Source: Planctomycetota bacterium
GTDB taxonomy: Bacteria > Planctomycetota > Phycisphaerae > Sedimentisphaerales > Anaerobacaceae
Reading direction: 5' to 3'
Assembly: GCA_023135865.1 (NCBI GenBank)
Contig: JAGLSG010000088.1
Coordinates: forward strand, 1 to 33,521
DNA length: 33,521 bases
Both the position numbers and the translations under genes were made by a program. Positions 9,356 to 33,029 of the stretch are shown here, in pieces (positions within the stretch are counted from its first letter, which is position 1; the number at the start of each line of letters is the position of its first letter). A model generated the notes under the pieces. The model was not told the DNA's origin. It did no database searches and worked only from the letters and a program-made list of their open reading frames with translations.

Positions 9356-9382
9356 TCCGTGTCCCGTAACTCGTGGAGATGT

Positions 9383-9745: not shown

Positions 9746-9792
9746 GAGCTGTTAAATACGGACGACGGGTCACGAGAGACGAGTAACGAACC

Positions 9793-13529: not shown

Positions 13530-13703
13530 AAATGTAAAGTGCAAAGTGTAAAGTTAAGGAAGTCATCGCAGCAAAGCTGCGATTCCACAATTTTGATTCC
13601 TTCGACTTAGCTCAGGACAGGTTTGTTTAGGATTTAGAATTTAACGCAATACGCTTCACCCATTCGACTGCGCTCAGGGCAGGCGAGATACGAGATACGA
13701 ATT
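13530..13703. repeat. Palindromic intergenic element, copy 3, with added TTCGACT/GCTCAGG repeats (between B and D)
   Basis: AAAGTGCAAAGTGTAAAG arm, GGAAGTC, hairpin ATCGCAGC-AAA-GCTGCGAT (about 13565-13583), then ATTCCACAATTTTGATT. The TTCGACTTAGCTCAGGACA element follows as in copy 2, and a further variant, TTCGACTGCGCTCAGGGCA, lies near 13665-13685. It ends in two GAGATAC units directly before the subunit D start, which has no Shine-Dalgarno. Confidence 0.75.
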
Positions 13704-17046: not shown

Positions 17047-19719
17047 ATGAGACTTAAACACCTGCATCCTGGAATGATGAAACTTACTGCATTGGCTATG
17101 GCTGTTTTCGTTGCCCTGTCAGGCGTTGCTCTCGGAACACAAGGAGAGCAAGATAAGGTCTATAAAATCGGCGTGCTGGCAAAAAGAGGTCAGGAAATCT
17201 GCTCTGAAAGATGGTCGGATACAAATCAGTACTTAACCAGCAATATCGAAGGTGCCGCTTTCAAAATAGTTTTCCTTAATTTCGATGAAGTACATTCAGC
17301 AGTTGAGCAGGGTGATATTGACTTTGTTTTTGTTAATTCTTCCTTCTACGTGGAACTGGAGGCGATGTATGGTGCGGAGAGGATAGCCACACTGAGAAAC
17401 CTCGGCTCAGGAAAACCATGCACTGTTTATGGGGGAGTAATTTTCACCACTGCTGACAGGGGCGATATAAACAGCTTTAAGGATTTGAAGGGCAGGAATC
17501 TTGCTGCTGCCCATGAATCTTCGCTTGGTGGATGGAGGGCATGCTGGCGAGAACTCAAAGACAAAGGCATTGACCCATATAGAGATTTTGCCAATTTGAC
17601 ATTTGAAGGCACCCATGATGCGGTTGTCTATGCGGTCAGAGATGGCGTAGTTGATGCCGGCATTGTGCGGACGGACATACTTGAGTGCATGGCTCAAAAG
17701 AATGAAATAGATATTCGTGATTTCCGCATTATTCGCGAAAAAGATACATTCCAAAGTGAAGATTTCCCTTTTTTACATAGTACACGGCTTTATCCTGAGT
17801 GGCCGCTGGCAAAATTGAAAAACACACCTGATGATATAGCGGAAAAAGTTGCAGTGGTACTTATGTGCATAAAACCATCCTATCAATGCGCCGTTGTCGG
17901 AAAATATGCCGGATGGACAATTCCACACAATTATCAGCTGGTACACGATTGCTTAAAAGAACTAAAAGTCGGACCTTACAAAAATTATGGCAAGATTACT
18001 CTTGCTGGTGTCATCAGCCAATATTGGCCATGGATTATTACGATTGTCGTTGTTGTGGCCTCAATGGGCACCGTTGTATTTGTTTTGCTATCAAATCGAA
18101 AATTAAGATCTTCGCGGAAGGCACTCAAAAAGGAAATAACAGGCCACAAGCAGGCCGAAAAAGCACTTGTCGAAAGCGAAGAGCGTTTTCGACAGGTAAC
18201 AGAAAATGCTCACGAGTGGGTATGGGAAGTTAATCCGCAAGGCCTATACACGTATGTAAGCCCGGTTGTGGAAAAAATTCTGGGCTATAAAGTCAATGAA
18301 ATCGTGGAAAAAAAATATTTTTATGAACTCTTCCATCCCGATGACAGGGAAGAACTGAAGAAAAAAGCATTCGATGCTTTTGCTGAAAAGAAATCATTCA
18401 GCGAACTTACAAATAGAAACATACATAAAGACGGCCAAGTCGTCTGGCTTTCAAGCAGCGGTGTAGCCATCCTTGATGATGATGGAAAACTGCTCGGCTA
18501 TAGGGGGGCTGATATAGATATTACCAACCATAAAAAAACCGAACAGAAAGCGGCCAGTGAAAAAGCGCTGCTTTGTGCGCTTATGGATAATCTGCCGGAT
18601 AGAATCTACTTCAAAGATATTGAAAGTAGGTTTATCAGGGTCAGCAAGGGTTTGATAAAGTATCACGATCTCGGCTCGCCGAAAAAAGTAATTGGAAAAA
18701 CAGACTTCGACCTCTTCGCAGGTGAACATGCAAATAAAGCATACGAAGATGAGAAGAAAATTCTCAAGACCGGCCAGCCCCTGCTCGGCATAGAGGAAAA
18801 AGAAACATGGCCGGATGGCAAAGTTACATGGTCGTCAACTACTAAAATGCCGCTGCGGGATAAAAACGGAAAAATAATAGGAACTTTCGGAGTCTCAAGA
18901 GATATTACCAGCAGATGTGTAGCAGAGCAGCGGCTGGCACATACAGCTCTCGAACTGAAACGTTCAAATGCTGACCTGCAGCAGTTCGCATCAGTGGCTT
19001 CACACGATTTGCAGGAGCCGCTTAGAATGATAACAAGCTATCTGCAGCTGCTCGTAAAACGATACGAAGAAAAATTCGACAGCGATGCAAAAGAATTTAT
19101 TGCATTTGCCGTTGATGGTGCAAAACGTATGCAGGGACTTATCAACGATTTACTGCAGTACTCCAGAGTTGGAACAAGAGGCAAGCCGTTTGCGCCGTGT
19201 AGTCTCGAAGACCTTGTAACAAGATCAATCAGAGACCTTGGCCAAAAAATCGAAGAAAATCAGGCGGTTGTTACGCATACGCGTATGCCAAATGTAATAG
19301 CTGACAGTACGCAACTCGAACAGATATTCAGAAACATTGTCAACAATGCTCTCAAATACCGTCATAAAGAAGTGCTGCCAAAAATACATATAGCATGTGA
19401 GCAGAAAGGCAAAGAGTGGGTTTTCAGCATAAAAGACAACGGCATCGGAATGGAGAAAAAATACTTCGATAGAATCTTTGTAATCTTCCAGCAGCTGCAC
19501 GCAAGGAATGAATACGGCGGAAGCGGAATCGGCCTGGCGGTCTGCAAAAGAATCATCGAAAGGCACGGCGGACAAATCTGGGTCGAATCCGAATTTGGAA
19601 AAGGCTCGACATTCTACTTTACGCTGCCAGTAGAAAGAAACGATGAAGAAAATATTGAAGAAAAAGGTGAAGATGAAATTAATACCGAAGAATTGGAAAC
19701 AATAATAAGGGATAAATAA
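17047..19719 (+). CDS. Membrane sensor histidine kinase with PhnD-like periplasmic sensor and two PAS domains
   Basis: This 890-aa kinase has a signal peptide or N-terminal anchor at 1-30. It is followed by a periplasmic domain (about 35-310) like the substrate-binding proteins of phosphonate/phosphate ABC transporters (YKIGVLAKRGQE, then GDIDFVFVNSSFY, LKGRNLAAAHESSLGG, GVVDAGIVRTD). A transmembrane helix lies at about 327-349. Two PAS/PAC units follow, near 370-495 and 505-625. The phosphoacceptor is H653 in SHDLQEPLRM, the phytochrome-like HisKA type, and the ATPase domain has DNGIGM and GGSGIGLAVCKRI. PhnD-like sensors occur in kinases such as the tetrathionate sensor TtrS, but this ligand cannot be read from sequence. 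The acidic tail after the kinase core is unusual. Three response-regulator genes follow directly. Confidence 0.93.
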   Translation: MRLKHLHPGMMKLTALAMAVFVALSGVALGTQGEQDKVYKIGVLAKRGQEICSERWSDTNQYLTSNIEGAAFKIVFLNFDEVHSAVEQGDIDFVFVNSSFYVELEAMYGAERIATLRNLGSGKPCTVYGGVIFTTADRGDINSFKDLKGRNLAAAHESSLGGWRACWRELKDKGIDPYRDFANLTFEGTHDAVVYAVRDGVVDAGIVRTDILECMAQKNEIDIRDFRIIREKDTFQSEDFPFLHSTRLYPEWPLAKLKNTPDDIAEKVAVVLMCIKPSYQCAVVGKYAGWTIPHNYQLVHDCLKELKVGPYKNYGKITLAGVISQYWPWIITIVVVVASMGTVVFVLLSNRKLRSSRKALKKEITGHKQAEKALVESEERFRQVTENAHEWVWEVNPQGLYTYVSPVVEKILGYKVNEIVEKKYFYELFHPDDREELKKKAFDAFAEKKSFSELTNRNIHKDGQVVWLSSSGVAILDDDGKLLGYRGADIDITNHKKTEQKAASEKALLCALMDNLPDRIYFKDIESRFIRVSKGLIKYHDLGSPKKVIGKTDFDLFAGEHANKAYEDEKKILKTGQPLLGIEEKETWPDGKVTWSSTTKMPLRDKNGKIIGTFGVSRDITSRCVAEQRLAHTALELKRSNADLQQFASVASHDLQEPLRMITSYLQLLVKRYEEKFDSDAKEFIAFAVDGAKRMQGLINDLLQYSRVGTRGKPFAPCSLEDLVTRSIRDLGQKIEENQAVVTHTRMPNVIADSTQLEQIFRNIVNNALKYRHKEVLPKIHIACEQKGKEWVFSIKDNGIGMEKKYFDRIFVIFQQLHARNEYGGSGIGLAVCKRIIERHGGQIWVESEFGKGSTFYFTLPVERNDEENIEEKGEDEINTEELETIIRDK

Positions 19720-19781: not shown

Positions 19782-20243
19782 ATGGCTGAGCAACGAATAA
19801 AATGTTCGGATGATTCGCTGATGAATGTCCTGCTTGTTGAGGATAATCTCGGGGATGTGCGGCTGACTGAAGAGGCAATAAAAGATGGCAAGCTGGCAGT
19901 CAATCTGTATGTGGCAAGCGATGGCGTTGATGCAATGGAGTTTCTCAGAAAAGAAGGTGAAAATGCCAATGCACCTACGCCAGACCTGGTTTTGCTGGAT
20001 TTGAATCTGCCGAGAAAAAACGGACACGAAGTTCTTTCAGACATAAAAACAGATAGCAAATTGAAAAGCATTCCGGTTGTGGTTTTAACAAGTTCGGAAG
20101 CCGATACGGATATTGTCAAGTGTTACGATCTTTACGCAAATTGTTATATCGCAAAGCCAGTGGATCTCGAGCAGTTTGCTATAGTCGTAAAGACAATTAA
20201 AAATTTCTGGTTCACAATTGTAAGACTACCTGAGGAGGCATAA
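19782..20243 (+). CDS. Single-domain response regulator (Rcp1-like), first of a tandem pair
   Basis: A 153-aa receiver domain with no output domain. The acidic pocket is E20-D21 in LLVEDNLGD, the phosphoacceptor is D73 in LVLLDLNLP, the switch Thr is in VVVLTSSEAD and the Lys in CYIAKPVDL. The NLPRKNG and FWFTIVRLP strings are typical of Rcp1-type regulators that partner phytochrome-like kinases, which fits the kinase 62 bp upstream. An AAGG site precedes ATG. Its end contains the ribosome site of the next gene. It probably acts as a phosphate relay or protein-protein switch. Confidence 0.93.
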   Translation: MAEQRIKCSDDSLMNVLLVEDNLGDVRLTEEAIKDGKLAVNLYVASDGVDAMEFLRKEGENANAPTPDLVLLDLNLPRKNGHEVLSDIKTDSKLKSIPVVVLTSSEADTDIVKCYDLYANCYIAKPVDLEQFAIVVKTIKNFWFTIVRLPEEA

Positions 20244-20245
20244 TA

Positions 20246-20680
20246 ATGGACGAGAAAAAAGTCAAAATTTTACTTGTCGAAGACAATCCAGGAGATGTTC
20301 GGCTTGTCCACGAGGCATTGAAAAACAGTAAACTTGCCGTTGATTTGTACATAGCAAGAGATGGAGAAGAGGCAATGTCTTTTCTCCGGCGAGAGGATGA
20401 CCATAAAGATGTTCCTATGCCTGACCTTATCATTCTCGATTTGAATCTGCCGAAAAAAGACGGAAGAGAAGTGCTCGCTGAGGTCAAAGCTGACAGTCGC
20501 CTCAAGAGAATTCCAGTGGTAGTAATGACTTCATCAAAGCTGGATGAGGATGTGGAAAAGTGCTACAAACTGCACGCCAACTGTTACATTTCCAAACCAG
20601 TAGATTTGGATTTGTGTTCAAGTATTGTACAAAATATTGAGGACTTCTGGTTCACAATTGTGAAACTGCCGGAAGAATGA
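20246..20680 (+). CDS. Single-domain response regulator (Rcp1-like), second of a tandem pair
   Basis: A 144-aa paralogue of the preceding gene, alike over its full length: LLVEDNPGDVRL, LIILDLNLPKKDG with phosphoacceptor D65, VVVMTSSKLD, CYISKPVDL and FWFTIVKLPEE at the end. The pair arose by tandem duplication. The start lies 2 bp after the previous stop, and its GAGGAGG ribosome site is inside the previous gene's last codons, so the two are translationally coupled. No output domain is present. Confidence 0.93.
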   Translation: MDEKKVKILLVEDNPGDVRLVHEALKNSKLAVDLYIARDGEEAMSFLRREDDHKDVPMPDLIILDLNLPKKDGREVLAEVKADSRLKRIPVVVMTSSKLDEDVEKCYKLHANCYISKPVDLDLCSSIVQNIEDFWFTIVKLPEE

Positions 20681-20684: not shown

Positions 20685-22418
20685 ATGGATGAAAAAAATA
20701 AAACAATAAAACTACTGCTGATAGAAGATAATCCCGGCGATGCACGTCTGATGAAGGAAATGCTGACAGACGGTATGGACAGTCCCTTTACAGTGGAGTT
20801 TGCAAGCTGTCTTGCTGAAGGACTTGAGCAGCTCGACAAAGCGAACTTCGATGTGATAATACTGGATTTAATGCTGCCGGACAGCTACGGCCTTGAGACC
20901 TTTGTGAAGGTCAATGAAAAAGCGCCGCGTTCGCCGATTGTTGTTACGAGCGGATTGAACGATGAGGCGCTTGCCGTTAATGCCGTGCAAAGAGGCGCAC
21001 AGGATTATCTTGTAAAAGGCCATGCTGACAGCGGTGCGATGCGGCGATCTCTTAGATACGCTATAGAGCGAAAGCAGATTCAGGAAAACCTGCGAATCAA
21101 AGACCGTGTAGTCGAATCTTCAATCAACTCAATAGCAATAGCTGATTTGCAGGGAAAGCTGACTTATGCAAACCATGCTTTTCTGGATTTATGGGGTTAC
21201 GAAAGTATTGATGAAGTTAAAGGAAAATCAATAGAGGAATTTTCGCACAGATTTACCGAGGCGCTCTGGATTACTGAAACCGCACTAAGTCGCGGAAGCT
21301 GGCAGGGTAAAATGCGAGGACAGAGAAAAGACGGAGTTGCTCTGGATTTGCAGCTTTCAGCTTTTATAGTTTCCGAAAGCGATGAGGTACATAAACCAAT
21401 GTGTCTCGTATTTTCATTCGTGGATATTACAGAGCTGTCACAATTGCGCCGCCGACTTGAAAGCGAAAGATCGTTTGCAGGAATCATCGGCTGCGATGCG
21501 AAAATGCTCGAACTGTTCGACACGATAAGAGAGGTTGCTGAAGTTGATGCACCGGTTCTGCTGCAGGGTGAAAGCGGGACAGGGAAAGAACTTGTCGCAA
21601 TCGCAATACATAATCAGGGAACGCTTTCAAATAGGCCGTTTGTGCCGGTCAATTGCGGAGCTTTGCCGGAAGGCGTACTCGAAAGCGAACTTTTCGGACA
21701 TGTAAAAGGTGCGTTTACAGGGGCTATAAGAGATAGAAAAGGAAGATTCGAGCTGGCAGATGGAGGAACGATATTCCTTGACGAAATAGGCGAGCTGCCG
21801 AGGGAAATGCAGGTGAAACTTTTAAGAGTTTTGCAGGATGGAAAATTCCAGCCGGTTGGCTCGGAAAAAACCATGAAAGTTGATGTCAGGGTAATCAGCG
21901 CAACAAATAAAAATCTCGCTGAAGAAGTCAGCAACGGAACATTCAGAGAAGACCTTTTCTATCGGCTGTGTGTTGTTCCGATTTATATGCCGCCGCTACG
22001 CGAAAGAAGAAAGGATATTCCGCTGCTCGCAAATCACTTCCTCAGAGAAGCATTGGCTGAAATGCACAGAGAAAAAGTCGTGCTCTCAACCGAAGCGATT
22101 GATTTCCTTATGGAGTACAACTGGCCGGGAAATGTGAGAGAGCTGGAAAATGCAATGCAATACGCATTGATGAAATGCAAGGGCGACCAGGTTTTGCCCG
22201 AACATTTTTCTCTCAGAGACAGAAGCGTTGCTTTTGAAGAATCAACGCAGGACAAAAAACAGAGAAAAACAAAAATCGATACAGATTCAGTCACAAAGGC
22301 ACTTGAAGAAACCGGCGGAAATAAAATCGCCGCCGCTGAAAAGCTCGGAGTTTCAAGAGCAACACTGTATCGACATATTCAGGATGGTCAAGAATCAAAC
22401 AAAACCGGAGCGAGGTAA
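20685..22418 (+). CDS. Sigma-54-dependent transcriptional activator (REC-PAS-AAA+-Fis HTH)
   Basis: The 577-aa enhancer-binding protein has a receiver domain at 1-125 with phosphoacceptor D61 (VIILDLMLPD), a PAS domain at about 145-260 and an AAA+ core at about 265-500. Walker A is G295-ESGTGKE, the sigma-54-contacting loop GAFTGA is at 342-347 and Walker B has D366-E367 in FLDEIGEL. A Fis-type helix-turn-helix ends the protein (GGNKIAAAEKLGVSRATLYR, about 545-564). The intact GAFTGA loop shows that it should activate sigma-54 promoters. It is 4 bp after the second response regulator. Its likely target lies downstream: a TGTCTCA array and a -24/-12 promoter at 24337-24641. Closest functional analogues are PilR/AtoC/NtrC-type activators. 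Confidence 0.95.
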   Translation: MDEKNKTIKLLLIEDNPGDARLMKEMLTDGMDSPFTVEFASCLAEGLEQLDKANFDVIILDLMLPDSYGLETFVKVNEKAPRSPIVVTSGLNDEALAVNAVQRGAQDYLVKGHADSGAMRRSLRYAIERKQIQENLRIKDRVVESSINSIAIADLQGKLTYANHAFLDLWGYESIDEVKGKSIEEFSHRFTEALWITETALSRGSWQGKMRGQRKDGVALDLQLSAFIVSESDEVHKPMCLVFSFVDITELSQLRRRLESERSFAGIIGCDAKMLELFDTIREVAEVDAPVLLQGESGTGKELVAIAIHNQGTLSNRPFVPVNCGALPEGVLESELFGHVKGAFTGAIRDRKGRFELADGGTIFLDEIGELPREMQVKLLRVLQDGKFQPVGSEKTMKVDVRVISATNKNLAEEVSNGTFREDLFYRLCVVPIYMPPLRERRKDIPLLANHFLREALAEMHREKVVLSTEAIDFLMEYNWPGNVRELENAMQYALMKCKGDQVLPEHFSLRDRSVAFEESTQDKKQRKTKIDTDSVTKALEETGGNKIAAAEKLGVSRATLYRHIQDGQESNKTGAR

Positions 22419-22515: not shown

Positions 22516-24279
22516 ATGAGTGTGGCAACAAAAACCAATAAACCAAAGCCAGGCGTAAAACTTGGTGTTCGCTTCGGCGAATGGCTTGTTAGCAAAAATG
22601 TGATGAGCACGGACAAGCTCAATGAAGCCCTGCGAGAACAAAGAACGAGTGGCGGCCGATTGGGAGAAGTTCTGCTGAGATTGGAAATACTCAGCCATAA
22701 AGATATTACAAATGCTCTTGCTGAATACCTCGGAATAGATTGCGTAAATCTTGAGGACACTTCCAAAATCAATATGGACGTAGCAAGAAGTATTCCAGAA
22801 GCAATCGCAAAACGGTTCTGCTTAATCGCAACCGGTGAAGCAGATGGTAAAATCATTGTGGCAATGGGCGACCCGCTAAATGTAGTTGCAATAGATACGA
22901 TAGCACTGAAATTGAAAAGACGTATCAAGCCGGTCATAAGTTCTATTCCGGAAATTCAGCACGCAACAGAAGTTGTCTATCACGGAAGCGACCTTGAAGA
23001 ACAAAAACTAAAAGACATCGTCGAACTCGATGCAAAAAACAGCAAAAGCGATGAAATAATAGAAAACCTTATGGAAACAGACATTAGCAAGGAAGCCGAT
23101 GCTAATGATGCTCCTGTAATTCAATTTGTAAATCTGCTGCTCAGCCAGGCCGTAAAATCAAAGGCCAGTGATATTCACATTGAGCCGCGAGAAAAAGTAA
23201 TGAGCATTCGAATGAGAACTGACGGTGTGCTCAGAAATATGGTGCCGCCGCATCCAAAAATGCAGGCAGCTGTAACTACAAGATTGAAAATCCTCTCGGA
23301 AATGGACATTGCGGAAAGAAGATTGCCGCAGGATGGAAGATTCAAAATAAAAGCGACAGGAAGAGATGTGGATGTGCGTGTCTCAACAATACCAACAATA
23401 TACGGTGAAAAAATCGTTATGCGATTGCTCGATAAAACAGCGGTCGACCACAATATTGAAAAGCTGGGATTTTCACCTGAAATGCTGAAAAAATTTAAAG
23501 CTGTTCTGACTCAGCCGCACGGAATTATAATTGTTACAGGGCCAACCGGAAGCGGTAAAAGTACTACGCTTTACTCTTCGCTGGCGTATCTGAACGACCC
23601 CAAAAAGAATATCACAACAGTTGAAGACCCTGTGGAATACCGGCTCGAAGGAGTTAATCAGGTACAGGTTAAGCCGGAAATCAAGCTGGATTTTGCAAGG
23701 TGCCTGAGGGCAATACTAAGGCAGGACCCGGATATTGTTTTAATCGGCGAAATCCGAGATAAAGAAACAATGGAAATCGCAATCAAGGCCTCGCTTACCG
23801 GCCATCTTGTGATGAGTACTTTCCACACAAACGATGCGCCAAGTGCAATCAGCCGATTGGTTTATATGGGACTGGAGCCGTATTTACTGGCTTCAACTTT
23901 GAATATGATAATTGCGCAGCGGCTCGTCAGAAAAATCTGCGATAAATGCAAAGAGCCGGTCGAACTTAATGATGAAGTTTTGAAGCATCTTCACATTGAC
24001 CCGGCTGAGGCGAAAGATAAAGTTTTCTATCACGGCAAGGGCTGTAATGCGTGCGGCGGAACCGGCTATAAAGGACGGCTGCCAATTTTTGAGGTCTTGA
24101 TGTTCGACAGGGACATTCGTGAAAAACTCGTCGCCGGGGCAAAAGAAGCAGAATTAAGGGCAGCTGCAAGAGCAAACGGATACGGCGGATTGCTCGAAAG
24201 CGGCGTGGAAAAATTGCTGGCCGGACTTACAACAGCTGAAGAAGTTCTGAATGTAACATTTGAAGAGGATGTAACGTAA
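22516..24279 (+). CDS. pilB: Type IV pilus assembly ATPase PilB (GspE family) with MshEN c-di-GMP-binding domain
   Basis: This 587-aa ATPase drives pilus extension at the inner-membrane platform. The N-terminal MshEN domain has two 24-residue motifs separated by exactly five residues: R19-FGEWL to Q42, then RTSGG, then R48-LGEVL to Y71. That is the layout known to bind c-di-GMP. Walker A is G342-PTGSGKST with K348, followed by the Asp box TTVEDPVEY, Walker B DIVLIGEIRD and the His box STFHTNDAPSA. A four-cysteine zinc site (CDKCKEP and CNACGGTGYKG) is typical of PilB/GspE and absent in retraction ATPases. GGGTGA lies shortly before ATG. It could instead be a type II secretion GspE, but the pilMNO operon nearby favours a pilus. 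Confidence 0.93.
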   Translation: MSVATKTNKPKPGVKLGVRFGEWLVSKNVMSTDKLNEALREQRTSGGRLGEVLLRLEILSHKDITNALAEYLGIDCVNLEDTSKINMDVARSIPEAIAKRFCLIATGEADGKIIVAMGDPLNVVAIDTIALKLKRRIKPVISSIPEIQHATEVVYHGSDLEEQKLKDIVELDAKNSKSDEIIENLMETDISKEADANDAPVIQFVNLLLSQAVKSKASDIHIEPREKVMSIRMRTDGVLRNMVPPHPKMQAAVTTRLKILSEMDIAERRLPQDGRFKIKATGRDVDVRVSTIPTIYGEKIVMRLLDKTAVDHNIEKLGFSPEMLKKFKAVLTQPHGIIIVTGPTGSGKSTTLYSSLAYLNDPKKNITTVEDPVEYRLEGVNQVQVKPEIKLDFARCLRAILRQDPDIVLIGEIRDKETMEIAIKASLTGHLVMSTFHTNDAPSAISRLVYMGLEPYLLASTLNMIIAQRLVRKICDKCKEPVELNDEVLKHLHIDPAEAKDKVFYHGKGCNACGGTGYKGRLPIFEVLMFDRDIREKLVAGAKEAELRAAARANGYGGLLESGVEKLLAGLTTAEEVLNVTFEEDVT

Positions 24280-24336: not shown

Positions 24337-24537
24337 TGTCTCAAATTTATCAAAAGTGTCTCATTTAATCGAAACTGTCTCATTTGTTAATGAGACAGTC
24401 TGTCTCATTTCGCAGGCGTTCTGAAAAATCGTAAACTCATTTTTGGCATAGCTTTATCAAATCTGTCTCAATAAAAGTGTATCACAAAAATTGAGACAAA
24501 CTGTCTCACTGTCTCATTAAGAACGCCAAATGAGACA
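24337..24537. promoter_or_regulatory. Array of ten TGTCTCA sites: candidate enhancer for the sigma-54 activator
   Basis: Exact copies on the plus strand start at 24337, 24357, 24376, 24401, 24464, 24502 and 24510. Inverse copies (TGAGACA) start at 24391, 24492 and 24531. Two pairs form the same 17-bp palindrome TGAGACA-N3-TGTCTCA (24391-24407 and 24492-24508). A wider 26-bp palindrome with 11-bp arms spans 24374-24399. Many centre-to-centre spacings are close to whole helical turns (20, 19, 10, 63, 10, 21). Nine of ten copies are preceded by C or G, giving (C/G)TGTC. GGCGTTCT (24415-24422) and its inverse AGAACGCC (24519-24526) further mirror the two halves. The array ends about 115 bp upstream of the predicted sigma-54 start. 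Confidence 0.85.
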
Positions 24538-24624
24538 GTTGTAAATCTTATAACGTAAAAAATAATCACTCCCAAGTCGTTTGTATTGCTGAAGTTACAA
24601 TCTTTTACTGCAATGTCCGATAAT

Positions 24625-24641
24625 TTGGCACAACGATTGCT
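24625..24641 (+). promoter_or_regulatory. Sigma-54 (-24/-12) promoter
   Basis: TTGGCACAACGATTGCT matches the YTGGCAC(G)-N4-TTGCW consensus. GG is at 24627-24628 and GC at 24639-24640, with the required ten bases between them. The only mismatch in the core is A for G after TGGCAC. Transcription should begin near 24652, giving a leader of about 50 nt to the ATG at 24703. The presence of a sigma-54 activator gene 2.2 kb upstream and of a repeated-site array directly upstream makes this much more than a chance match. Confidence 0.88.
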
Positions 24642-24702
24642 CATAAACACCAATGTATGGCATCAAACAAAAAACAAAATCGGTGGGGTCAGGAGAGAGA
24701 GA

Positions 24703-24969
24703 ATGGTGAGTCATATTGGAAATGAATATATCTCGGAGGCAATGAAGATGGCTCAACGTATTATGCGTATGGCTAATTGCGGTGAACTGTTGACGAATAA
24801 CGATGAATGCGGAGTGCTCTTTGGAGTGCTGCGGGATTGTGCTTACAAAATCCGCAAACAGGCAATGCGAGATACTCAAATTCAAAAACAAAAAACAATA
24901 GCTGATGAAATCGAATATCTGTTGAGTGAGCAGTCCGAGATTCAAAAACCAAAATGCGAACAGTCGTAA
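24703..24969 (+). CDS. Small protein of unknown function (88 aa), first gene behind the sigma-54 promoter
   Basis: I do not recognise the family. ATG 24703 is chosen because AGGAG lies 7 bp upstream and because it is downstream of the predicted transcript start; the frame is open back to 24586 but that ATG precedes the promoter. The product starts MVSHIGNEYISEAMKMAQRI and is predicted to be mostly helical, with Met-rich and amphipathic segments. It has three cysteines in the ordered part (ANCGELL, DECGVLF, RDCAYK) and one near the C-terminus. There is no signal peptide, membrane helix or pilin motif. The charged C-terminal half (KQKTIADEIEYLLSEQSE) could form a coiled coil. It is followed at 16 bp by another small gene. 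Confidence 0.7.
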   Translation: MVSHIGNEYISEAMKMAQRIMRMANCGELLTNNDECGVLFGVLRDCAYKIRKQAMRDTQIQKQKTIADEIEYLLSEQSEIQKPKCEQS

Positions 24970-24985: not shown

Positions 24986-25183
24986 ATGACTCACAACATT
25001 AACATAGAAAATGAATACAATAATTATATCGCCAGTAAGTGGCAGAAACTTTCCAAAACAACACAACATGCCTTAAAAATGGAAAAAGACGGAGTAAGCC
25101 AGAACTACGTTAATGCAATATCTATGTGGACTATAAAATTTCTTCAGGAAAAATTAAATAATCTGGAAACAGAAACGAAATAA
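24986..25183 (+). CDS. Small protein of unknown function (65 aa), second gene behind the sigma-54 promoter
   Basis: I do not recognise the family. The start ATG 24986 has a strong GGAAGAGG ribosome site (24971-24978). The frame is also open upstream to 24926, inside the previous gene, but without a comparable site. The product starts MTHNINIENEYNNYIASKWQ and ends KFLQEKLNNLETETK. It is hydrophilic and likely helical, with no Cys, signal peptide or membrane helix. Its size and spacing suggest co-expression with the 88-aa gene. The stop is directly followed by the purine-rich tract. Confidence 0.65.
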   Translation: MTHNINIENEYNNYIASKWQKLSKTTQHALKMEKDGVSQNYVNAISMWTIKFLQEKLNNLETETK

Positions 25184-25195
25184 AAACCGACCAAT

Positions 25196-25480
25196 GCAGG
25201 ATAGAGCGAGGAGTTGAGAGAGAAAGAGGCGGGAGCTGAGAGAGAGTGAGATGTCGGAGGAGAGGGAGAGGAAAGAGTAGGGAGAAAGTGGAGAGGTGAG
25301 AGTAGAGAGAGTGTCGAAGCAGAGGCAGGGTGAGTGAGTTGGAGAGAAAAGGGAAAGAGGCAGGGAGAGTAGAGAGCAGGAGAGTTGGTCGAGAGAGAGT
25401 TCTATAGGAAGAGGATTTTTAGTAAATAGTAACTGGTTTCAAAGTTAGAAATTGGCTTAATGGAGGATAGAGAGAGGATG
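25196..25480 (+). ncRNA. Purine-rich, GGA-repeat tract, candidate non-coding RNA or mRNA 3' region
   Basis: From 25201 to 25380 only 27 of 180 bases on the plus strand are pyrimidines by my count. The tract is low-complexity GAGAG/GGAGAG/AGGGAG with no open frame of note on either strand. Between 25199 and 25545 I count about 22 GGA triplets, roughly four times chance. On the RNA these resemble ribosome-site (AGGAGG) or CsrA-site (GGA) sequence. The region lies directly after the two small genes and should be on the sigma-54 transcript. It could also be a simple-sequence expansion without function, or form triplex DNA. Confidence 0.5.
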
Positions 25481-25638: not shown

Positions 25639-25806
25639 CAAATTTACTACTTACCAGCAGTTTTCCTTTCAAAAATTATTCGGCAATTCAGCTCTTTTGC
25701 AAAACTGACTATATACAGTTTAAGCTATAAACCAGCAAAAGCCAATTACGGTCATTACGTGTTTATTGAAGTAAAACAAAATTGCCCCAGGACACACCAA
25801 TTCGGG
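25639..25806. other. AT-rich spacer without a recognised feature
   Basis: No gene or strong motif is visible. A weak 6-bp stem (AAACTG/CAGTTT) lies around 25702-25721, and the string CCCAGGACA seen in the loop of hairpin 4 recurs near 25786. Confidence 0.4.
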
Positions 25807-25885
25807 GTCATTGCGAGCGAAGCGAAGCAATCTCAAAAACTCAAAAATCGAGATTGCCACGGCAGAGAAGCTGCCTCGCAATGAC
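25807..25885. repeat. REP-like palindromic element (GTCATTGCGAG type)
   Basis: It starts GTCATTGCGAG and ends with the inverse CTCGCAATGAC. Inside, GCAATCTC and GAGATTGC pair across an A-rich loop. A related half-element lies at 14460-14496. Elements with these ends are common between genes in many environmental bacteria. It sits between the convergent small-gene unit and the secretin operon. Confidence 0.75.
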
Positions 25886-25925
25886 AATGGTTGAGGTGCT
25901 ATTCTCTACAGAATAATTACAAATA

Positions 25926-26001: not shown

Positions 26002-27672
26002 TTATTTATTTTCCTCGGAAACATCACCAAAACTTACTTTTGACGTTTTGGCTTTTGGGATATTGGTTCTTTTAAGTGCTTCAATATCGTCCGGTGAAAG
26101 AGTCGGCTCTATAACAATTCGCGGAGTTATGAATATAAGCAATTCGTTGGTTTTCACCGATTCGCTCGTATCTGTGAACAGTCCTCCGAGCAAGGGCAAA
26201 TCGCCAAGTAAAGGCATTTTGCGAATGTCCTGCGTGATTTCCCTTTTGCGAAGTCCGCCGAGAACTACGGTCTGATTGTTCCTCACCAACGCTTTTGTGT
26301 CAAGCATTCGGGTACTTACGGTGGGAACAAGCAGGGCGCCTGTCGAGTCTCTCTGCTGGTCTTCAACAATGCCGAATTCAGGAATAATGTGTAATCTGAG
26401 CATTCCGTCTCTTGTAATGTGGGGTGTAACCTGAAGCTGTACACCGACATCCTTGAACTGAGTTGAAGTCATACTGCCGCCATCAGATGTTGCACTTTGC
26501 TCCTTGTATGGAATTTCGCGTACAATCTTAAATTGAGCTGTTTCATTGTCGAGTACGAGTATGCTCGGATTTGCGAGAAGGGTGGCTCCTACCTGTTTGT
26601 GAAGCATACTCAGAGCTATATCTATATCGACCATATCATTCATCAGACCAAAACGTATAGAGCCGCCGGTTTCACGGTCGAATCCGCCGCTTACAAATGG
26701 TCTGCTTCGATAACTTGTTGATTCTGTTGTTGTTTCCTGTGTTTTGACAATGCCTCTGCCGTCCGATGCCGGTGTTTCGGTTCTAACCGTTCCAGTACCA
26801 GTCGTTGCGGGTGATTGAGTTGTAACCGTTTCTGTAATTACTGGCGCTGTGGCATCGGGGTCGTCACTTTCGGTTATGGTGGTTGTGTAAGTATCAGTAG
26901 CTGATGTATCGGTTGTGGTGGTTGTGTAAGTATCAGTAGCAGGCGTATGAGTATCCGTTATCGTTTCTTTGTCTGTTTTTGTGATGGTGTCAATGGCTGT
27001 ATTGCGGCCGGCATCCCAATCTACTATAACATCGAAACTTTCTGTGCTGGTTATGTCATAGATTCTAACCTCAACCATAATCTGCGGTGTGATGCGGTCG
27101 ATTTCCTCAATGAAAGTATCAATCGCCTTGATTTTGCTCTCAGTGTCAGTAACGATTATGTTACTCGTGCCGGGACTGGAAGACAGTGAGCCGCGATTGG
27201 ATATGAATTTTTCCAACGACTTTTCGACTTCATCAACGTTTGCATAAATGATGCGGTATATCCTATTGACAAGCTTTTCAGATTCGTCACTGATTTCTGC
27301 TGAAGGAGCTATTCTTATCATATTTTTATCGAGAATATAGCCAAAATCGTGCGCTCTAAGAATGTTGTTAAGTGCCTCCTCGAGAGGAATCTCCGTTAGC
27401 GTAGCGGTCACATTTCCGAATACTTTGGGACTCTTGACAATATCAACATCGGCTTGCTCGGCCATTATTCGCAGTACGTCTTCGATTGCCGTATCCCTGA
27501 AATCAACGCTGATTTTTTTCTGCATCCGCTGCTCAAGCGATGTTAAGACCTCCTTGTTTACAGAATTCGGGTCATTATTTTCGGCGTCGGTTGCTGCCGG
27601 CGTTGCGCAGATGAATGTCACAAGCACTAACAGCCATATTCCTTTTCTTGTTTTTTTTATAAAACCGCTCAT
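26002..27672 (-). CDS. pilQ: Outer-membrane secretin (PilQ/GspD family) with Thr-rich repeat insertion
   Basis: Forms the outer-membrane channel for the pilus. I choose ATG 27672 because AGGAAGGA lies 7 bp upstream; the ATG at 27699 has no ribosome site. The 556-aa product has a signal peptide to about residue 30 (ending TPAATDA). An STN/N-domain follows (ISVDFRDTAIEDVLRIMAEQ, then LTEIPLEEALNNIL), then a second N-domain with SSPGTSNIIVTDTESKIKAI. The secretin domain is at the C-terminal half (QVTPHITRDGMLRL, VLGGLRKREI, PLLGDLPLLGGLF, LLIFITPRIV). Between the first secretin strand and GGSIRFGL, about residues 220-325 are Thr-rich, with a 13-residue unit repeated (TDTYTTTTTDTSA, TDTYTTTITESDD). 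It could be a type II secretion GspD, but PilM/N/O upstream favour PilQ. Confidence 0.9.
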   Translation of the reverse strand: MSGFIKKTRKGIWLLVLVTFICATPAATDAENNDPNSVNKEVLTSLEQRMQKKISVDFRDTAIEDVLRIMAEQADVDIVKSPKVFGNVTATLTEIPLEEALNNILRAHDFGYILDKNMIRIAPSAEISDESEKLVNRIYRIIYANVDEVEKSLEKFISNRGSLSSSPGTSNIIVTDTESKIKAIDTFIEEIDRITPQIMVEVRIYDITSTESFDVIVDWDAGRNTAIDTITKTDKETITDTHTPATDTYTTTTTDTSATDTYTTTITESDDPDATAPVITETVTTQSPATTGTGTVRTETPASDGRGIVKTQETTTESTSYRSRPFVSGGFDRETGGSIRFGLMNDMVDIDIALSMLHKQVGATLLANPSILVLDNETAQFKIVREIPYKEQSATSDGGSMTSTQFKDVGVQLQVTPHITRDGMLRLHIIPEFGIVEDQQRDSTGALLVPTVSTRMLDTKALVRNNQTVVLGGLRKREITQDIRKMPLLGDLPLLGGLFTDTSESVKTNELLIFITPRIVIEPTLSPDDIEALKRTNIPKAKTSKVSFGDVSEENK

Positions 27673-27732
27673 AACAGTTTCCTTCCTAATTGTGTTCATT
27701 GTTCATTAACAGTTTTTTTATCTATGAACTAA

Positions 27733-28731
27733 TTATTTTTGGACCTTTTGTCCCCACGTTTTTCCATTAAGTTCAAACACTACGCCGTCTTCGAGTATTT
27801 TTACGACAGTTGCATCGGATATTTTATCTCCTTCATGCACAATTTGTGTGCCTACGATTGCAGCTGCCTGGTCCTTACTGTGGACGATTCCTTTTACAAT
27901 AAATTGTCCGCCCACTGCATAGCCGGCAGATTCAGAACCCTGTTTCATAGGGTCGCGTATCGCTTCAGGATACGGATTGGGTATTTCCCAGTTAATCTTG
28001 CTTGCCGATGCAGTACCAGCTGTATCCACCGCAGCCGAATTCTCAGAAAGAGCCGCTTGTGGACTGGCTGAACCGAAAGTGCGAATAAGGACGATAATAA
28101 AAACCACAACAAGAATCGGCATAAGTATGAGCATTTTCTTTTGCCTTGGGTCTTCGACCTTACTGGTGAGCTTCTGGATTTTTCTCGTTAGCTTTTCTGT
28201 TATTGGTTTTAAGCTGTGCGAAAGCTGAACAGTTTTATCTGCTACAAATTCGGCATTTTTTCGCCATTGAATGTGTTTTACTTTTTCGATTAAAACCAAA
28301 GTTAAACTAATTACTGTTTGCCAGATTTTACGCCAATCAATTCTCGCAAAAAGCTGTTTGACTGAATCAATTTTTATTTTTTGTTTTATGGTTTCAATTT
28401 TCTTTTTAGTTGGTTCTGATATTTCGGCTATTTCTGTTTCCGGTTGCAGCGGCTTTGGCTCAAATGTTACTTTTTGCTCCAGCTGACCTGGCGTGGCAAC
28501 TTTTGGTTTTTGTATAACATCTTCAACTGGCTTTTCAACCAACTCGACAACCGGCTCGACAAAATCGTCTATTGAAGCCGGCTTTGAAATAATGTCATCA
28601 TTCGCTTTTGGCGGCTGGCTCAGCGGCTGCGAATATATGTGCGGCTTCTGCTCAGTGTCGTTTTTCGGAATCGGCACGCCGTCAAAAATTGATGATATTT
28701 TCTTATGAAGTCCTGTTCTATCTTTTGGCAT
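27733..28731 (-). CDS. PilP/GspC-like inner-membrane protein with long cytoplasmic N-terminus
   Basis: This 332-aa protein has a Pro/Glu/Lys-rich, probably disordered cytoplasmic region (about 1-110), a basic helical region (about 110-198), one transmembrane helix (about 200-217) and a periplasmic end. The last 55 residues (GGQFIVKGIVHSKDQAAAIV, then VHEGDKISDATVVKI, DGVVFELNGKTW) form the small beta domain of PilP/GspC that contacts secretin N-domains. Classical PilP is a lipoprotein of about 175 aa; this one has no lipobox and is anchored by a helix as GspC is. The start overlaps parA by 14 bp, with a GGAG site inside parA, so the two are coupled. It precedes the secretin by 60 bp. Confidence 0.75.
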   Translation of the reverse strand: MPKDRTGLHKKISSIFDGVPIPKNDTEQKPHIYSQPLSQPPKANDDIISKPASIDDFVEPVVELVEKPVEDVIQKPKVATPGQLEQKVTFEPKPLQPETEIAEISEPTKKKIETIKQKIKIDSVKQLFARIDWRKIWQTVISLTLVLIEKVKHIQWRKNAEFVADKTVQLSHSLKPITEKLTRKIQKLTSKVEDPRQKKMLILMPILVVVFIIVLIRTFGSASPQAALSENSAAVDTAGTASASKINWEIPNPYPEAIRDPMKQGSESAGYAVGGQFIVKGIVHSKDQAAAIVGTQIVHEGDKISDATVVKILEDGVVFELNGKTWGQKVQK

Positions 28732-29482
28732 TGCTTATCTCCTCAACGAGAGCTTTGTATTCAATTGCACCTTTACTTTGCGGAGCGTAAGTCAGAATCG
28801 ATTCGCCTGCGCTTGGTGCTTCGGCAAGACGAATCGTTCGGTGAATCACAGTATCAAACATAAGCTCACCGAAAAACTCCTGCATTTGGCTGCGTATCTG
28901 TTTACTTAGAAGTGTCCTGTTTTCAACGAAAGTCATAAGCACGCCGAGAATTTTCAGCTGACGATTGAAACGCTCTTTGACAATGTCAATCGTTTCTAAC
29001 AGCTGCTTTAATCCCTCAAGAGCATAATAATGAGTTTGAACCGGAATTATAATATCCGAACTTGCCACAAGGGCATTTAGTGTAAGCAAACTAAGCGAAG
29101 GCGAGCAGTCAATAATGCACATATCGTAATTACCGCCGACAAATGCCAGCTGCTGACTTAATGCGTATTCTCTGCCTTGCAGCATTGTCAAATTGGAATC
29201 AACACCGCTGAGCAGGACATTGCTCGGAGCTAAATCCAGTCCGTCAATTCGGCTGGGGATTATTATTTCAGAAATTGAAGTTTGATTATCGCACATGGCA
29301 TCATAAATGGTTTTCTCCATCTGCTCCGGCTCAAAACCAAGTCCGAGAGTTGTATGTCCCTGAGGGTCAAGGTCAACGAGCAAAACCTGTTTGCCGGCCA
29401 TAGCGAGAGCGGATGCGACATTTACAGCTGTGGTAGTTTTGCCGCAGCCGCCTTTCTGATTTGCTATAGCTATTGTTCTCAT
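28718..29482 (-). CDS. ParA/Soj-family ATPase encoded within the pilus operon
   Basis: A 254-aa ParA-type ATPase with deviant Walker A K10-GGCGKTT, Walker A' LLVDLDPQGH and Walker B CIIDCSPSLS. ANQKGGCGKTTTAVNVASAL at the start and RLAEAPSAGESIL near the end are typical of Soj/ParA. No parB gene or parS site is visible next to it, so chromosome partition is unlikely. Inside a pil operon such a protein more likely positions the pilus machine, as related MinD/ParA-like proteins do for flagella, pili and chemotaxis arrays. It lies 34 bp after pilO and overlaps the PilP-like gene. Confidence 0.92.
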   Translation of the reverse strand: MRTIAIANQKGGCGKTTTAVNVASALAMAGKQVLLVDLDPQGHTTLGLGFEPEQMEKTIYDAMCDNQTSISEIIIPSRIDGLDLAPSNVLLSGVDSNLTMLQGREYALSQQLAFVGGNYDMCIIDCSPSLSLLTLNALVASSDIIIPVQTHYYALEGLKQLLETIDIVKERFNRQLKILGVLMTFVENRTLLSKQIRSQMQEFFGELMFDTVIHRTIRLAEAPSAGESILTYAPQSKGAIEYKALVEEISNAKR

Positions 29483-29516
29483 AAGTTAATATCCAATAAT
29501 TTTTATGCAGTTCGTA

Positions 29517-30089
29517 TTAACTGCCCTTCATATTCTTAACAAAAACAGCCAACTCCATATCTATCAGCGGCTGCGATTTATCACAGTCTTTCTGCGTTAT
29601 TTTGAATTCATCCACAAAAATAATTGGGCGATGTCGTTCAAGTGAATTCAGAAAAGCAGCACACCGATTAAAGCTGGCATTGAAACTTACGTTTATACGC
29701 TTTTCATTTATGTAGCTGTACTCTTGTCCCTGCAAGTTTTGACATTTATTTTTGAATCCGATTTTGAAGGCAGAGACCTTTTTTTCAGATGCGATTTTAC
29801 CTATGTCAAAAGTCAGATTAGCTGAATCTTCAAAATCGACCACAAAATCGGTCAGTTTGCTGCGCAAAAGCTCAATTTGTTCGCTGAGCTTGTCTTTATT
29901 GTCCTGGAGAGTGGCGCTTATGGCGTATTCGTAGTTTTCTTTCTGTGAAATCAATTGCTTTTTAAGCGATTGCATTTGTTTTCTCTGCGGAACCAGCATA
30001 GTTGTGTAGCCGAACAGCAGTAGTACAAAGCCGCCGCACCATACCATGGCTATTGTAGTAATATATTTTTTGAAAGCTGATTTTGTCAT
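29517..30089 (-). CDS. pilO: Type IV pilus alignment protein PilO-like
   Basis: Chosen start ATG 30089 gives 190 aa beginning MTKSAFKKYITTIAMVWCGG. The frame is open to ATG 30131, inside the end of pilN, but the downstream start leaves a clean short N-terminus before the membrane helix (about residues 10-30), and AGGAG lies upstream at an 11-bp spacing. The helix is followed by a periplasmic coiled coil (about 35-80) and a C-terminal alpha/beta domain with INVSFNASFNRCAAFLNSLE, the ferredoxin-like fold of PilO. It pairs with PilN in the inner-membrane alignment complex. Sequence similarity is weak; order and topology carry the call. Confidence 0.75.
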   Translation of the reverse strand: MTKSAFKKYITTIAMVWCGGFVLLLFGYTTMLVPQRKQMQSLKKQLISQKENYEYAISATLQDNKDKLSEQIELLRSKLTDFVVDFEDSANLTFDIGKIASEKKVSAFKIGFKNKCQNLQGQEYSYINEKRINVSFNASFNRCAAFLNSLERHRPIIFVDEFKITQKDCDKSQPLIDMELAVFVKNMKGS

Positions 30090-30108
30090 TTCTAACTTCG
30101 CTCCTGCG

Positions 30109-30765
30109 TTACATTTCTGATTTGAAAACACAGTTTATTTCATAAAAAACAACGTCTTTTTCCTTGTAATTTTCAACCTGCTGAGATACCTGCACAGTTT
30201 CAAGTTTTGAACCAAGATTTTCAGGCAGCAGGAGCTGCCGGCGAAAATCCCGCACTTCTTTGGCACTGTCATATTTGGCATTGGCCATTATTTTCATATA
30301 AAGTGTTCTAACAGGAACCGAGACGGAAATCATTTTTTCAAAGTTTTCTTTGCTTGGAACGCTTTTACTTACAAAATTTTGCTTAACAGAAAGTTTAGTT
30401 AATACAACTGAATTCGGCAGATTCTTTATCATTGTTTCCAGGACCGGCGACCACTGCATATGATTGGCAATGGCAGAGGATACATCCGAAAGGCAGCCGT
30501 TTATAGTTTTTTTCTCGTTTTCGAGCGACCTTTGCAGATTCACCGCTTCAGCTAATTTATTCGTATTTGATTCGTAATTTCTTATCTCCTGAGTTCGCAC
30601 GGAGATGATGATTGTAGTGCGGAGATAATAGCCGAACATAGCCATTGCGATGAGCAGCGGTATGATAAAAGCTATTGCCATAACAGCAATGCTTTCAGGC
30701 CGACTCTTTATCGGAATGCCCTGTCCCTTTAATAAATCTATTTTGAACATAGCTTGATTTTTCAT
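30109..30765 (-). CDS. pilN: Type IV pilus alignment protein PilN-like
   Basis: A 218-aa bitopic protein. The short cytoplasmic N-terminus has FKIDLLKGQGIPIK, in the place of the conserved INLLP segment that binds PilM. A transmembrane helix lies at about 27-48, then a periplasmic coiled coil (about 50-95) and a C-terminal domain with LPNSVVLTKLSV. It starts 11 bp after pilM stops, with AGGG in front. It lacks strong sequence landmarks, so the call rests on the N-terminal motif, topology and gene order. Confidence 0.8.
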   Translation of the reverse strand: MKNQAMFKIDLLKGQGIPIKSRPESIAVMAIAFIIPLLIAMAMFGYYLRTTIIISVRTQEIRNYESNTNKLAEAVNLQRSLENEKKTINGCLSDVSSAIANHMQWSPVLETMIKNLPNSVVLTKLSVKQNFVSKSVPSKENFEKMISVSVPVRTLYMKIMANAKYDSAKEVRDFRRQLLLPENLGSKLETVQVSQQVENYKEKDVVFYEINCVFKSEM

Positions 30766-30776
30766 TTTATGCCCTA

Positions 30777-31835
30777 TTAGATACTCCTCATAGCAAGTCC
30801 GGCTGCGACCGCGAGAGCAGGCCCATTTTTAGTCACAATTTCCGGAAGGTCTATTTGTTGTGCTGATTCATCGTACGCCATTTCATCAAAGGGATTCCAC
30901 AGCACAGCTGCCGTAGGAAGCTGCTCATTGAGTATTTCAACGAAACCTTCGACAAGTGCAAAGCCGCCGCAAACAAATATTTTATCAATAACAGCCGACT
31001 GCTCCTGAGCTGTGTAGTATCTTAGAGTTTCAGTAACATCAACGACGAGCTTTCGGCAGGCCTCTTCGAGCAATTTCGGATTCGGTGCTTTGTGCCTGAT
31101 GTCCAGTTTTTCGTAGCCACTTTCTGTTACGGCGTATTCGCCGTGCTTGGCGATTTCCTTTATAATATCTCTTCCGGCGTACGACAAGTCGCGAACGAAA
31201 GGAAGACCATTGTCACCCATAATCACCAGGTTCGTAAAAGAATTTCCAACATTCAAAATAGCTGTCGTTTGTCCCTGCTGGAATTTATTATGTTCACCGA
31301 AATAGTTTAAAAGAGCCAATCCGTCAACGTCCATCATAACGGTGTTAAGCGAAGTGTTTTTAACGAGATGTGTTTTTTTGTTTATAATTTTATTTGTAGC
31401 TGCAACCATAACACCACGAATGTTATTTTTGTCATTGCTTGGCACCACCTGATAATCAACAACACCTTCATCAACATTGAAAGGGCAGACCTGCTTGGCT
31501 TCCATTAGAGCTGCTCCCGCTATTTCATCGTTCGCGAGAGATGGAAACTTGAAACGACGAACCGCAACTTCCGGCCCACAAATTCCGCAAACCGCAAACG
31601 GCGTTTGAATTCCAGTAATAAGGAGAGAATCACGAATAGCTTTGGCTGTGTTTATTTCCTGATGAGTTTTTCCATCCTCATCTGCTTCAATGATATCAAC
31701 AATACCAGCGGCGTTGACAGTCCAGTGCGAATTATTTTTGCTAAGCTGGACCATCTTTACCGAAGACGTACCAATGTCGAGGCCAAAGACTTCATCGTGG
31801 TCGATTTGAAGCAATTTTTTCAAATTAAAATCCAT
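30777..31835 (-). CDS. pilM: Type IV pilus assembly protein PilM (actin-like ATPase)
   Basis: A cytoplasmic actin-like protein that binds the PilN tail and links the alignment complex to the pilus motor. ATG 31835 is preferred and gives 352 aa beginning MDFNLKKLLQIDHDEVFGLD, close to the usual PilM start; the longer frame to 31889 adds 18 unconserved residues. Nucleotide-binding motifs: GLDIGTSSVKMVQL (phosphate 1), LNVGNSFTNLVIM (phosphate 2, with the adjoining FVRDLSYAGRDI) and KIFVCGGFALVEGF (adenosine). The leader is 290 bp long and separates it from the prepilin-like genes, so a promoter probably lies there, though I see no strong one. Confidence 0.92.
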   Translation of the reverse strand: MDFNLKKLLQIDHDEVFGLDIGTSSVKMVQLSKNNSHWTVNAAGIVDIIEADEDGKTHQEINTAKAIRDSLLITGIQTPFAVCGICGPEVAVRRFKFPSLANDEIAGAALMEAKQVCPFNVDEGVVDYQVVPSNDKNNIRGVMVAATNKIINKKTHLVKNTSLNTVMMDVDGLALLNYFGEHNKFQQGQTTAILNVGNSFTNLVIMGDNGLPFVRDLSYAGRDIIKEIAKHGEYAVTESGYEKLDIRHKAPNPKLLEEACRKLVVDVTETLRYYTAQEQSAVIDKIFVCGGFALVEGFVEILNEQLPTAAVLWNPFDEMAYDESAQQIDLPEIVTKNGPALAVAAGLAMRSI

Positions 31836-32059
31836 TTTGTATCTCACATACACAATAGTGTTCTCGTTCACACATACCTCTTGCGGCATCTATGCGTATG
31901 TCGGCTTAAAAAAGGAGATGTTTAATCTTAAAATTATGATGTGCAGCAGCGAAATAGTGGTTGTGTGCTTTTATTGCATATAGCCCTATAAAAAACAGGC
32001 GACTGATTATTTAAGCGGCTTTTTTGAAACAGGAATAATTTATTGCTGGAAAAAATAGA

Positions 32060-32076
32060 AATGTTCTTGAAACATT
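32060..32076 (-). terminator. Weak terminator-like hairpin after the pilX-like gene
   Basis: On the minus strand AATGTT (32076-32071) pairs with AACATT (32065-32060) across a 5-nt loop, followed by a T-rich run (TCTATTTTTT). The stem is only AT-rich and 6 bp long, so termination may be partial and the pilW-pilX and pilM-secretin genes may still be joined. Confidence 0.35.
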
Positions 32077-32126
32077 ATCGGGCGTTTTTGGGCGTTACAA
32101 ATGGTACATAGCTTACGATGAACTCA

Positions 32127-33026
32127 TTAGAATTCTGACCAGGACAGGACTGTTGGTTCGGGCGGGTCTGGAAATGTGAGCAAATTGCCGAATGCAGCAT
32201 CTATAGCGGCCTGGTCGAAGTTTATATTCGCTGTTCCGGTAACTCTGGTATCCACCGTAATATCGCCTTCTACAAATATCGAGCCGTTAACTTCTATGTT
32301 ACCGCTTATAAATAATTCTCCTATAACCCAGATTACACCGTCAAATACACCGCCGGCCATATCTAAATCACCGTTAATTACCATGATACCGCTGCCCACC
32401 CAATTGCCGGTTTTTGTTATTTTAAACTGGTTATTATCATCAATCCATGTGATTTGCTCAACAGGTGTTTCGTTGTGAGGGGGGTTAGTATAGTCATACG
32501 TAGCATAATCTCGCATTTCTGTTTTTGTTACGCCGAATACTTCTTCGAAGTTGGGAGTAGTGTTGTCCTCATATACGCCGTTGACATCAGCAGCTCCTTG
32601 AATTCTCAGCTCGCCGCTTGTCATCATAACTGTGGTTGCATTTGCCCCGACAGTAACTCTGACATTTCGTGTTGTCGTATTAGCAGCAGTGCCGGTGGAT
32701 TCAACAGTCCATCTGTATGCAGAAACAGGTGTGATGGTTACGCTATAGTCGCCACTTCCAAGTGTTCCGGTGAGTGGATTTGTCGGCGGCATTACTGGCA
32801 AATAACTAATCGCCATATTCAATCCGGCTTCGGCAATCCAGAATGCCTGCGTGGATTTCGTTGCCTTGGCCGTCTCCATCATATCCGTTCCGCTTTGACT
32901 AAGCAGCCCCACGCCCAGTATACTAATAACCACTAACATTATGATTACAAGGCCCAGTATAAAGCCGCTTCTGTTCGCCGCCGCCTTTTTTTGAGGGCTT
33001 CTGCCGATATGGAATTGTATTTTCAT
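32127..33026 (-). CDS. PilX-like minor pilin/assembly protein with beta-helix-like C-terminus
   Basis: A 299-aa protein starting MKIQFHIGRSPQKKAAANRS, with a hydrophobic helix at about 22-44 (GFILGLVIIMLVVISILGVG) and then QAFWIAEAGLNMA, typical of PilX N-terminal domains. The C-terminal part (about 200-270) has short repeated beta strands with Gly turns (GIMVINGDLDMAG, GVIWVIGELFISG, GSIFVEGDITV), as in beta-helix or bactofilin-like folds. It lies 3 bp after the pilW-like gene, with its AGGAA ribosome site inside that gene's last codons. The N-terminal helix lacks a Glu5, as is usual for PilX proteins of this type. Confidence 0.8.
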   Translation of the reverse strand: MKIQFHIGRSPQKKAAANRSGFILGLVIIMLVVISILGVGLLSQSGTDMMETAKATKSTQAFWIAEAGLNMAISYLPVMPPTNPLTGTLGSGDYSVTITPVSAYRWTVESTGTAANTTTRNVRVTVGANATTVMMTSGELRIQGAADVNGVYEDNTTPNFEEVFGVTKTEMRDYATYDYTNPPHNETPVEQITWIDDNNQFKITKTGNWVGSGIMVINGDLDMAGGVFDGVIWVIGELFISGNIEVNGSIFVEGDITVDTRVTGTANINFDQAAIDAAFGNLLTFPDPPEPTVLSWSEF

Positions 33027-33029
33027 AGT

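Follow-up and report, generated by a model that had tools for sequence, protein, structure and literature searches.

A cluster of TGTCTCA heptamers in the stretch of Planctomycetota DNA studied here probably forms the enhancer of a sigma-54 promoter, is predicted to be bound by the product of the adjacent activator gene, and would belong to a regulon that extends across phyla; judging from sequence, we put the probability of this reading at roughly 85%. As far as sequence comparison can tell, the array, an activator of a single clade and a small protein gene make up a conserved unit found in Planctomycetota, Desulfobacterota, Acidobacteria and a Kapabacterium MAG. What had been an odd repeat array thereby becomes a testable regulon, whose components (a specific DNA word, a specific activator clade and a small protein without a name) stay associated in different phyla, and it is this cross-phylum regulon with its unnamed protein, rather than the number of sites, that is of main interest. 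Positions are those of the window, i.e., the whole stretch of 33,521 nt that was analysed, and the features under discussion are collected in Table 1.

The heptamer array and its promoter

The first-pass annotation had listed ten exact copies of TGTCTCA or its reverse complement TGAGACA, and all ten were found in their places within 201 bp (24337-24537); it had overlooked a further site, the variant TGTATCA, which brings the array to 11 half-sites. At the background density of the genome (92 other copies in 1.69 Mb) 0.011 copies would be expected in 201 bp (Poisson P ~7e-27). The window as a whole holds 13 copies against 3.1 expected from dinucleotide shuffles, and 0 of 100 shuffles reached 13. 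Pattern searches of the genome counted 60 forward and 42 reverse copies (controls 44 and 56), and the scatter of the ninety-odd single copies matches chance. The same type of search was used to look for TGTCTCA clusters lying elsewhere in the genome without a promoter, which the first-pass annotation had said would speak against its reading; the array proved to be the sole cluster, even with the wider word TGTMTCA, so by this criterion the genome holds no further regulon members.

Table 1. Features of the window (half-sites numbered by exact heptamer)
Feature	Position	Strand	Remarks
Histidine kinase, PhnD-type sensor and PAS domains	17047..19719	+	possible input, from adjacency only
Two tandem paralogous single-domain response regulators	19782-20243, 20246-20680	+	adjoin kinase gene
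REC-PAS-AAA+(GAFTGA)-Fis activator	20685..22418	+	putative array binder, from domains and clade
GspE/PilB-type ATPase gene	22516..24279	+	between activator and array
Half-site TGTCTCA 1	24337..24343	+	exact match; kept in sibling
Half-site TGTCTCA 2	24357..24363	+	exact match; kept in sibling
Half-site TGTCTCA 3	24376..24382	+	opens triple module A; exact match; kept in sibling
Dyad TGAGACA-GTC-TGTCTCA (half-sites 4+5)	24391..24407	.	completes triple module A; kept in sibling
Half-site TGTCTCA 6	24464..24470	+	exact match; kept in sibling
Variant half-site TGTATCA	24478..24484	+	opens triple module B; 36-fold enriched elsewhere; altered in sibling
Dyad TGAGACA-AAC-TGTCTCA (half-sites 7+8)	24492..24508	.	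completes triple module B; left arm altered in sibling
Half-site TGTCTCA 9	24510..24516	+	exact match; kept in sibling
Half-site TGTCTCA 10	24531..24537	-	exact match; kept in sibling
Sigma-54 promoter TTGGCAC-N5-TTGCT	24625..24641	+	both boxes identical in sibling
88-aa protein gene	24703..24969	+	first after promoter; previously unannotated; unnamed helical-hairpin family
65-aa ORF	24986..25183	+	probable second operon gene; no family match (Pfam, NCBIfam)

The centres of adjacent half-sites lie 20, 19, 15, 10, 63, 14, 14, 10, 8 and 21 bp apart. These spacings had been described as near whole helical turns, a claim that did not survive a Rayleigh test at 10.5 bp (P = 0.87). The two TGAGACA-N3-TGTCTCA palindromes, reported as identical, are so in their arms but not in their three central bases. 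What recurs is a triple, TGTMTCA/TGAKACA/TGTMTCA, which is present twice (24376/24391/24401 and 24478/24492/24502) with gaps slightly shorter than those of its counterparts in relatives, and from these spacing counts we infer that the array may be composed of three-half-site modules. Relatives have 1-6 half-sites against the 11 of the window array, and the high count is a lineage-specific elaboration.

About 90 bp separate the array from the -24 box of the promoter. The -24/-12 promoter with GG-N10-GC reported by the first-pass annotation is indeed present in a TGGCAC-N5-TTGCW context, with GG at 24627-24628 and GC at 24639-24640, ten bases apart, and a predicted +1 near 24652. This promoter pattern has seven matches in the genome versus none for the reversed control pattern.

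The array recurs in another species of the genus, with 9 of its 10 heptamers intact. The aligned flanks of the two species are 90% identical overall, with 97% identity in the heptamer columns versus 84% in the spacers between them (Fisher P 0.005), and both promoter boxes are 100% identical while the bases between them have changed. The sites that this sibling has lost are TGTATCA and the heptamer forming the left arm of the second dyad.

The gene for sigma-54 itself (PF04552) was found in five relatives and was not detected in the incomplete assemblies of the window's genome (G000, 94.5% complete) or its sibling (G001, 79%). Since -24/-12 logic requires sigma-54, the missing gene counts against our reading. 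Both genomes are incomplete, and seven textbook promoters and several intact activators suggest that the gene may be present but unassembled.

The small protein gene and its relatives

The first-pass annotation had left its promoter without a target gene. The promoter serves the 88-aa gene, whose frame is preceded by a purine-rich ribosome-binding stretch, and the operon of the window consists of the two small frames only, flanked by type II secretion/pilus genes. No match to the 88-aa protein was found in Pfam, NCBIfam, PHROG or the PDB; its model is a two-helix hairpin (pLDDT 85), with which a fold search returned no significant structural match. Homologs are present in 80+ genomes, mostly Desulfobacterota, and no viral relatives were found. 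The genome scan for homologs used a subset alignment (A2), as the first alignment (A1) had no stretch conserved enough. The 80 loci of named genomes are likewise mostly from Desulfobacterota, joined by Planctomycetota, two Acidobacteria MAGs and one Kapabacterium MAG; further homologs were seen in other families of the order and in one other family of the class.

When the 500 bp upstream of the 80 homologs were searched with no motif supplied, the most widespread 7-mers were TGTATCA (54 loci) and TGTCTCA (47 loci), enriched 36x and 45x over background, respectively. Other single-base variants were nearly all enriched less than 10x (TGTCTCG, at 15x, being the main exception), and as changes at other positions mostly abolish enrichment, the word can be written TGT[C/A]TCA. 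It occurs 8-10 times per kb between -400 and -200, as opposed to 0.16 per kb far away, and its density is zero in the last 100 bp upstream and the first 200 bp of the gene. At least one copy is present at about seventy of the 80 loci, and about 10 of the 80 homologs have no exact TGTMTCA within the 520 bp searched. Strong -24/-12 boxes were found at 22 of the 80 loci versus 1.2 in shuffles, most loci having no textbook box under this strict scoring; where a strong box is present, it is mostly found 54-100 bp ahead of the start, and 82-110 bp usually separate its -24 from the nearest half-site upstream. The commonest pairings in relatives (TGAKACA-N4-TGTMTCA, TGTMTCA-N10-TGAKACA, and direct pairs 28 apart) sum to the triple TGTMTCA / TGAKACA / TGTMTCA. 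In most other relatives TGTCTCA pairs look scattered, at a rate about equal to that of the reversed control, and phage records gave chance matches only.

In Desulfobacterota, the small gene leads operons with rubrerythrin, desulfoferrodoxin, flavodoxin, CydA/CydB and sometimes a FUR-family gene, these partner families having been confirmed on examples; rubrerythrin is the next same-strand gene in 30 loci. Behind the small gene of a second Planctomycete family come genes named by sequence likeness as NifU/NifS-like, and in two related Planctomycetes (G024, G074) the small domain occurs as a fusion with a PEP-CTERM protein. The unit of regulation is thus a constant and the genes it would control differ between lineages, with oxygen or redox stress, judged from the neighbourhoods, the likely ancestral theme. 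At L104-L107, in another Planctomycete family, the small gene has NifU/NifS-like genes on one side and a gene for a sigma-70-like factor on the other, and TGTMTCA is present upstream. In the fusions seen in two related Planctomycetes (L097:8101-9141, L100:9979-11025), the partner of the small domain is a repetitive secreted protein that ends in a PEP-CTERM signal.

The activator clade

The activator encoded upstream of the array matched PF00158 at 236 bits and PF02954 at 36 bits, and its translation has the intact GAFTGA loop that had been ascribed to it. In the related Planctomycetes G070, G024 and G074, and in many Desulfobacterota, the small gene is immediately preceded by an activator gene. 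Across the 80 named loci, an activator of this kind was found in the fetched flank of 30, on the same strand and upstream in 28; at L152 the end of the activator gene runs directly into TGTATCATGAGACAgtttTGTCTCA. Another Planctomycete family has no linked activator, but the six of its genomes examined each encode a single one with the same RATL(Y/H)RF recognition helix. Upstream of their own genes, 4 of these 6 unlinked activators have TGTMTCA, versus 1 of 24 background activators. In a maximum-likelihood tree, the window activator, the array-linked activators and the six unlinked ones formed one clade of 36 rows with 100/100 support, outside which fell four other activators of the window's own genome and the 24 background activators; some own-genome activators, too short or unusual, had been left out of the tree. 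The first-pass proposal that the REC-PAS-AAA+-Fis protein is the predicted binder of the array thus gains strong support from the conservation of TGTMTCA and from this clade.

Input domains vary within the clade, being PAS alone, REC-PAS or low-molecular-weight (LMW) phosphatase-PAS. An N-terminal LMW phosphatase before PAS-AAA+-Fis was confirmed by Pfam at L201:2951-4684, and such a domain can be inferred from sequence at L144:2962-4725 and L163:2930-4726.

Proposed mechanism and alternative explanations

With the array, the promoter, their conservation and the activator clade all legible in the DNA and its translations, we propose that the array acts as the upstream activating sequence of the sigma-54 promoter, each TGTMTCA being a putative half-site for the Fis-type helix-turn-helix of the activator. 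Dimers would occupy the inverted pairs TGAGACA-N3-TGTCTCA as well as flanking half-sites, and the many sites in 200 bp would promote the loading of activator oligomers; looping of the DNA would then bring the AAA+ ring to the sigma-54 polymerase at the promoter, from which transcription of the 88-aa gene, and probably also of the 65-aa ORF, would start near the predicted +1. Since the activator of the window lineage carries a receiver domain, a histidine kinase, probably the adjacent one, may switch it. The Planctomycete unit may serve the same stress response as that of Desulfobacterota. More broadly, one activator lineage with interchangeable sensors might read TGTMTCA arrays throughout a cross-phylum sigma-54 regulon, controlling a new small-protein family that is central to the oxygen or oxidative-stress defence of anaerobes and is possibly the activator's feedback partner, a tentative picture to which we give somewhat less than even odds.

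Besides the undetected sigma-54 gene, points against this mechanism are the GspE/PilB-type gene that separates the activator from the array, a site number above that of relatives, and the homologs that lack an exact TGTMTCA or a textbook -24/-12. As an alternative, the array could be bound by some other regulator (e.g., a FUR-family or other nearby-encoded protein), the activator acting from elsewhere or not at all. FUR-family genes are found at some loci, and in one Planctomycete family the gene beside the array is a divergent sigma-70-like one rather than an activator. We consider this improbable, however, since in every group examined the motif is accompanied by activators of a single clade, TGTMTCA precedes the genes of unlinked clade members in contrast to those of background activators, and the sites are placed some 80-110 bp or more ahead of the -24, which is enhancer range. 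A PilR identity for the activator, which would make the array a pilin-type enhancer for the neighbouring type IV pilus/type II secretion genes, draws on GTCT elements being described as a hallmark of PilR sites (PMC6058289) and on the pilM, secretin and GspE/PilB-type genes that flank the locus, a neighbourhood with a similar counterpart in G074. Yet the promoter points into a helical protein that has no pilin signature, the pilus genes (26002-33515) are on the opposite strand, and the same motif in Desulfobacterota heads oxidative-stress genes rather than pilins. We therefore judge this identity very unlikely and take the shared GTCT core as a partial resemblance only.

In its tandem and inverted short repeats with TG...CA termini the array looks like the ends to which transposases bind, so that a remnant mobile-element end (IS21-like multiple end repeats or a MITE) also had to be weighed. 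This origin is scarcely credible, and we rejected it: the genome has no second cluster, no matching direct repeat flanks the array, no transposase was found among the window proteins scanned, and the array and the gene downstream of it are conserved together in different phyla.

Comparison with known systems

The preferred reading, a sigma-54 enhancer, has its closest general parallel in the enhancers of the NtrC family, with which it shares dyad half-sites before a -24/-12 promoter and an AAA+/GAFTGA activator with a Fis helix-turn-helix encoded near the target. It differs from them in its motif, in having up to eleven half-sites and an unnamed small-protein target, and in its conservation across phyla with changing inputs (PAS; REC-PAS; LMW phosphatase-PAS). 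In the PEP-CTERM box/PrsR regulon of Proteobacteria, a sometimes repeated upstream motif with a -24/-12 promoter has been assigned to an NtrC-like activator (Haft 2006, PMC1569441). Our system resembles it in that combination and in the fusions of the small domain to PEP-CTERM proteins; the PrsR motif 1 ends in TTTACA, however, and the targets differ. The window activator itself was rejected as PrsR (TIGR02915), scoring 369.6 bits against a curated cut-off of 502.6. PilR sites at pilA promoters are alike in their GTCT elements upstream of a sigma-54 promoter and in the pilus genes nearby, but the target here is not a pilin, and in the wider family the association is with genes for oxidative stress or Fe-S assembly.

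The enhancer-binding protein (EBP) regulons of Desulfovibrio vulgaris (PMC4641369), as presented in the main text of that paper, are similar in being small, in having the activator gene beside the sigma-54 operon and, for DVU2956, in a site of three half-sites. Neither rubrerythrin nor cytochrome bd nor oxygen is mentioned in that main text, and the motif is not written out there; a described regulator of our clade may be included in the paper, which shows motifs in a figure. The control circuit is apparently undescribed. Among the papers listed by our searches of the open literature, none had the exact heptamer together with sigma-54 or enhancer terms, and those searches found no paper on a sigma-54/rubrerythrin/cytochrome bd regulon. 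The results provide a searchable motif and a testable protein family, and relatives of Desulfatitalea alkaliphila, for example, might serve as genetic models.

Other features of the window

The histidine kinase with its PhnD-type periplasmic binding domain partly resembles the tetrathionate sensor TtrS. Just 3' of the small operon is a GA-rich (strongly purine) low-complexity tract (25195-25430), and a REP-like inverted repeat (cattgcgagcgaagcgaagcaatc ... gattgccacggc ... ctcgcaatgac) is located at 25800-25890. The window of this small Planctomycete genome also contains a V/A-type ATP synthase operon (5049-14321) with subunits I, C, E, AC39, A, B and D.
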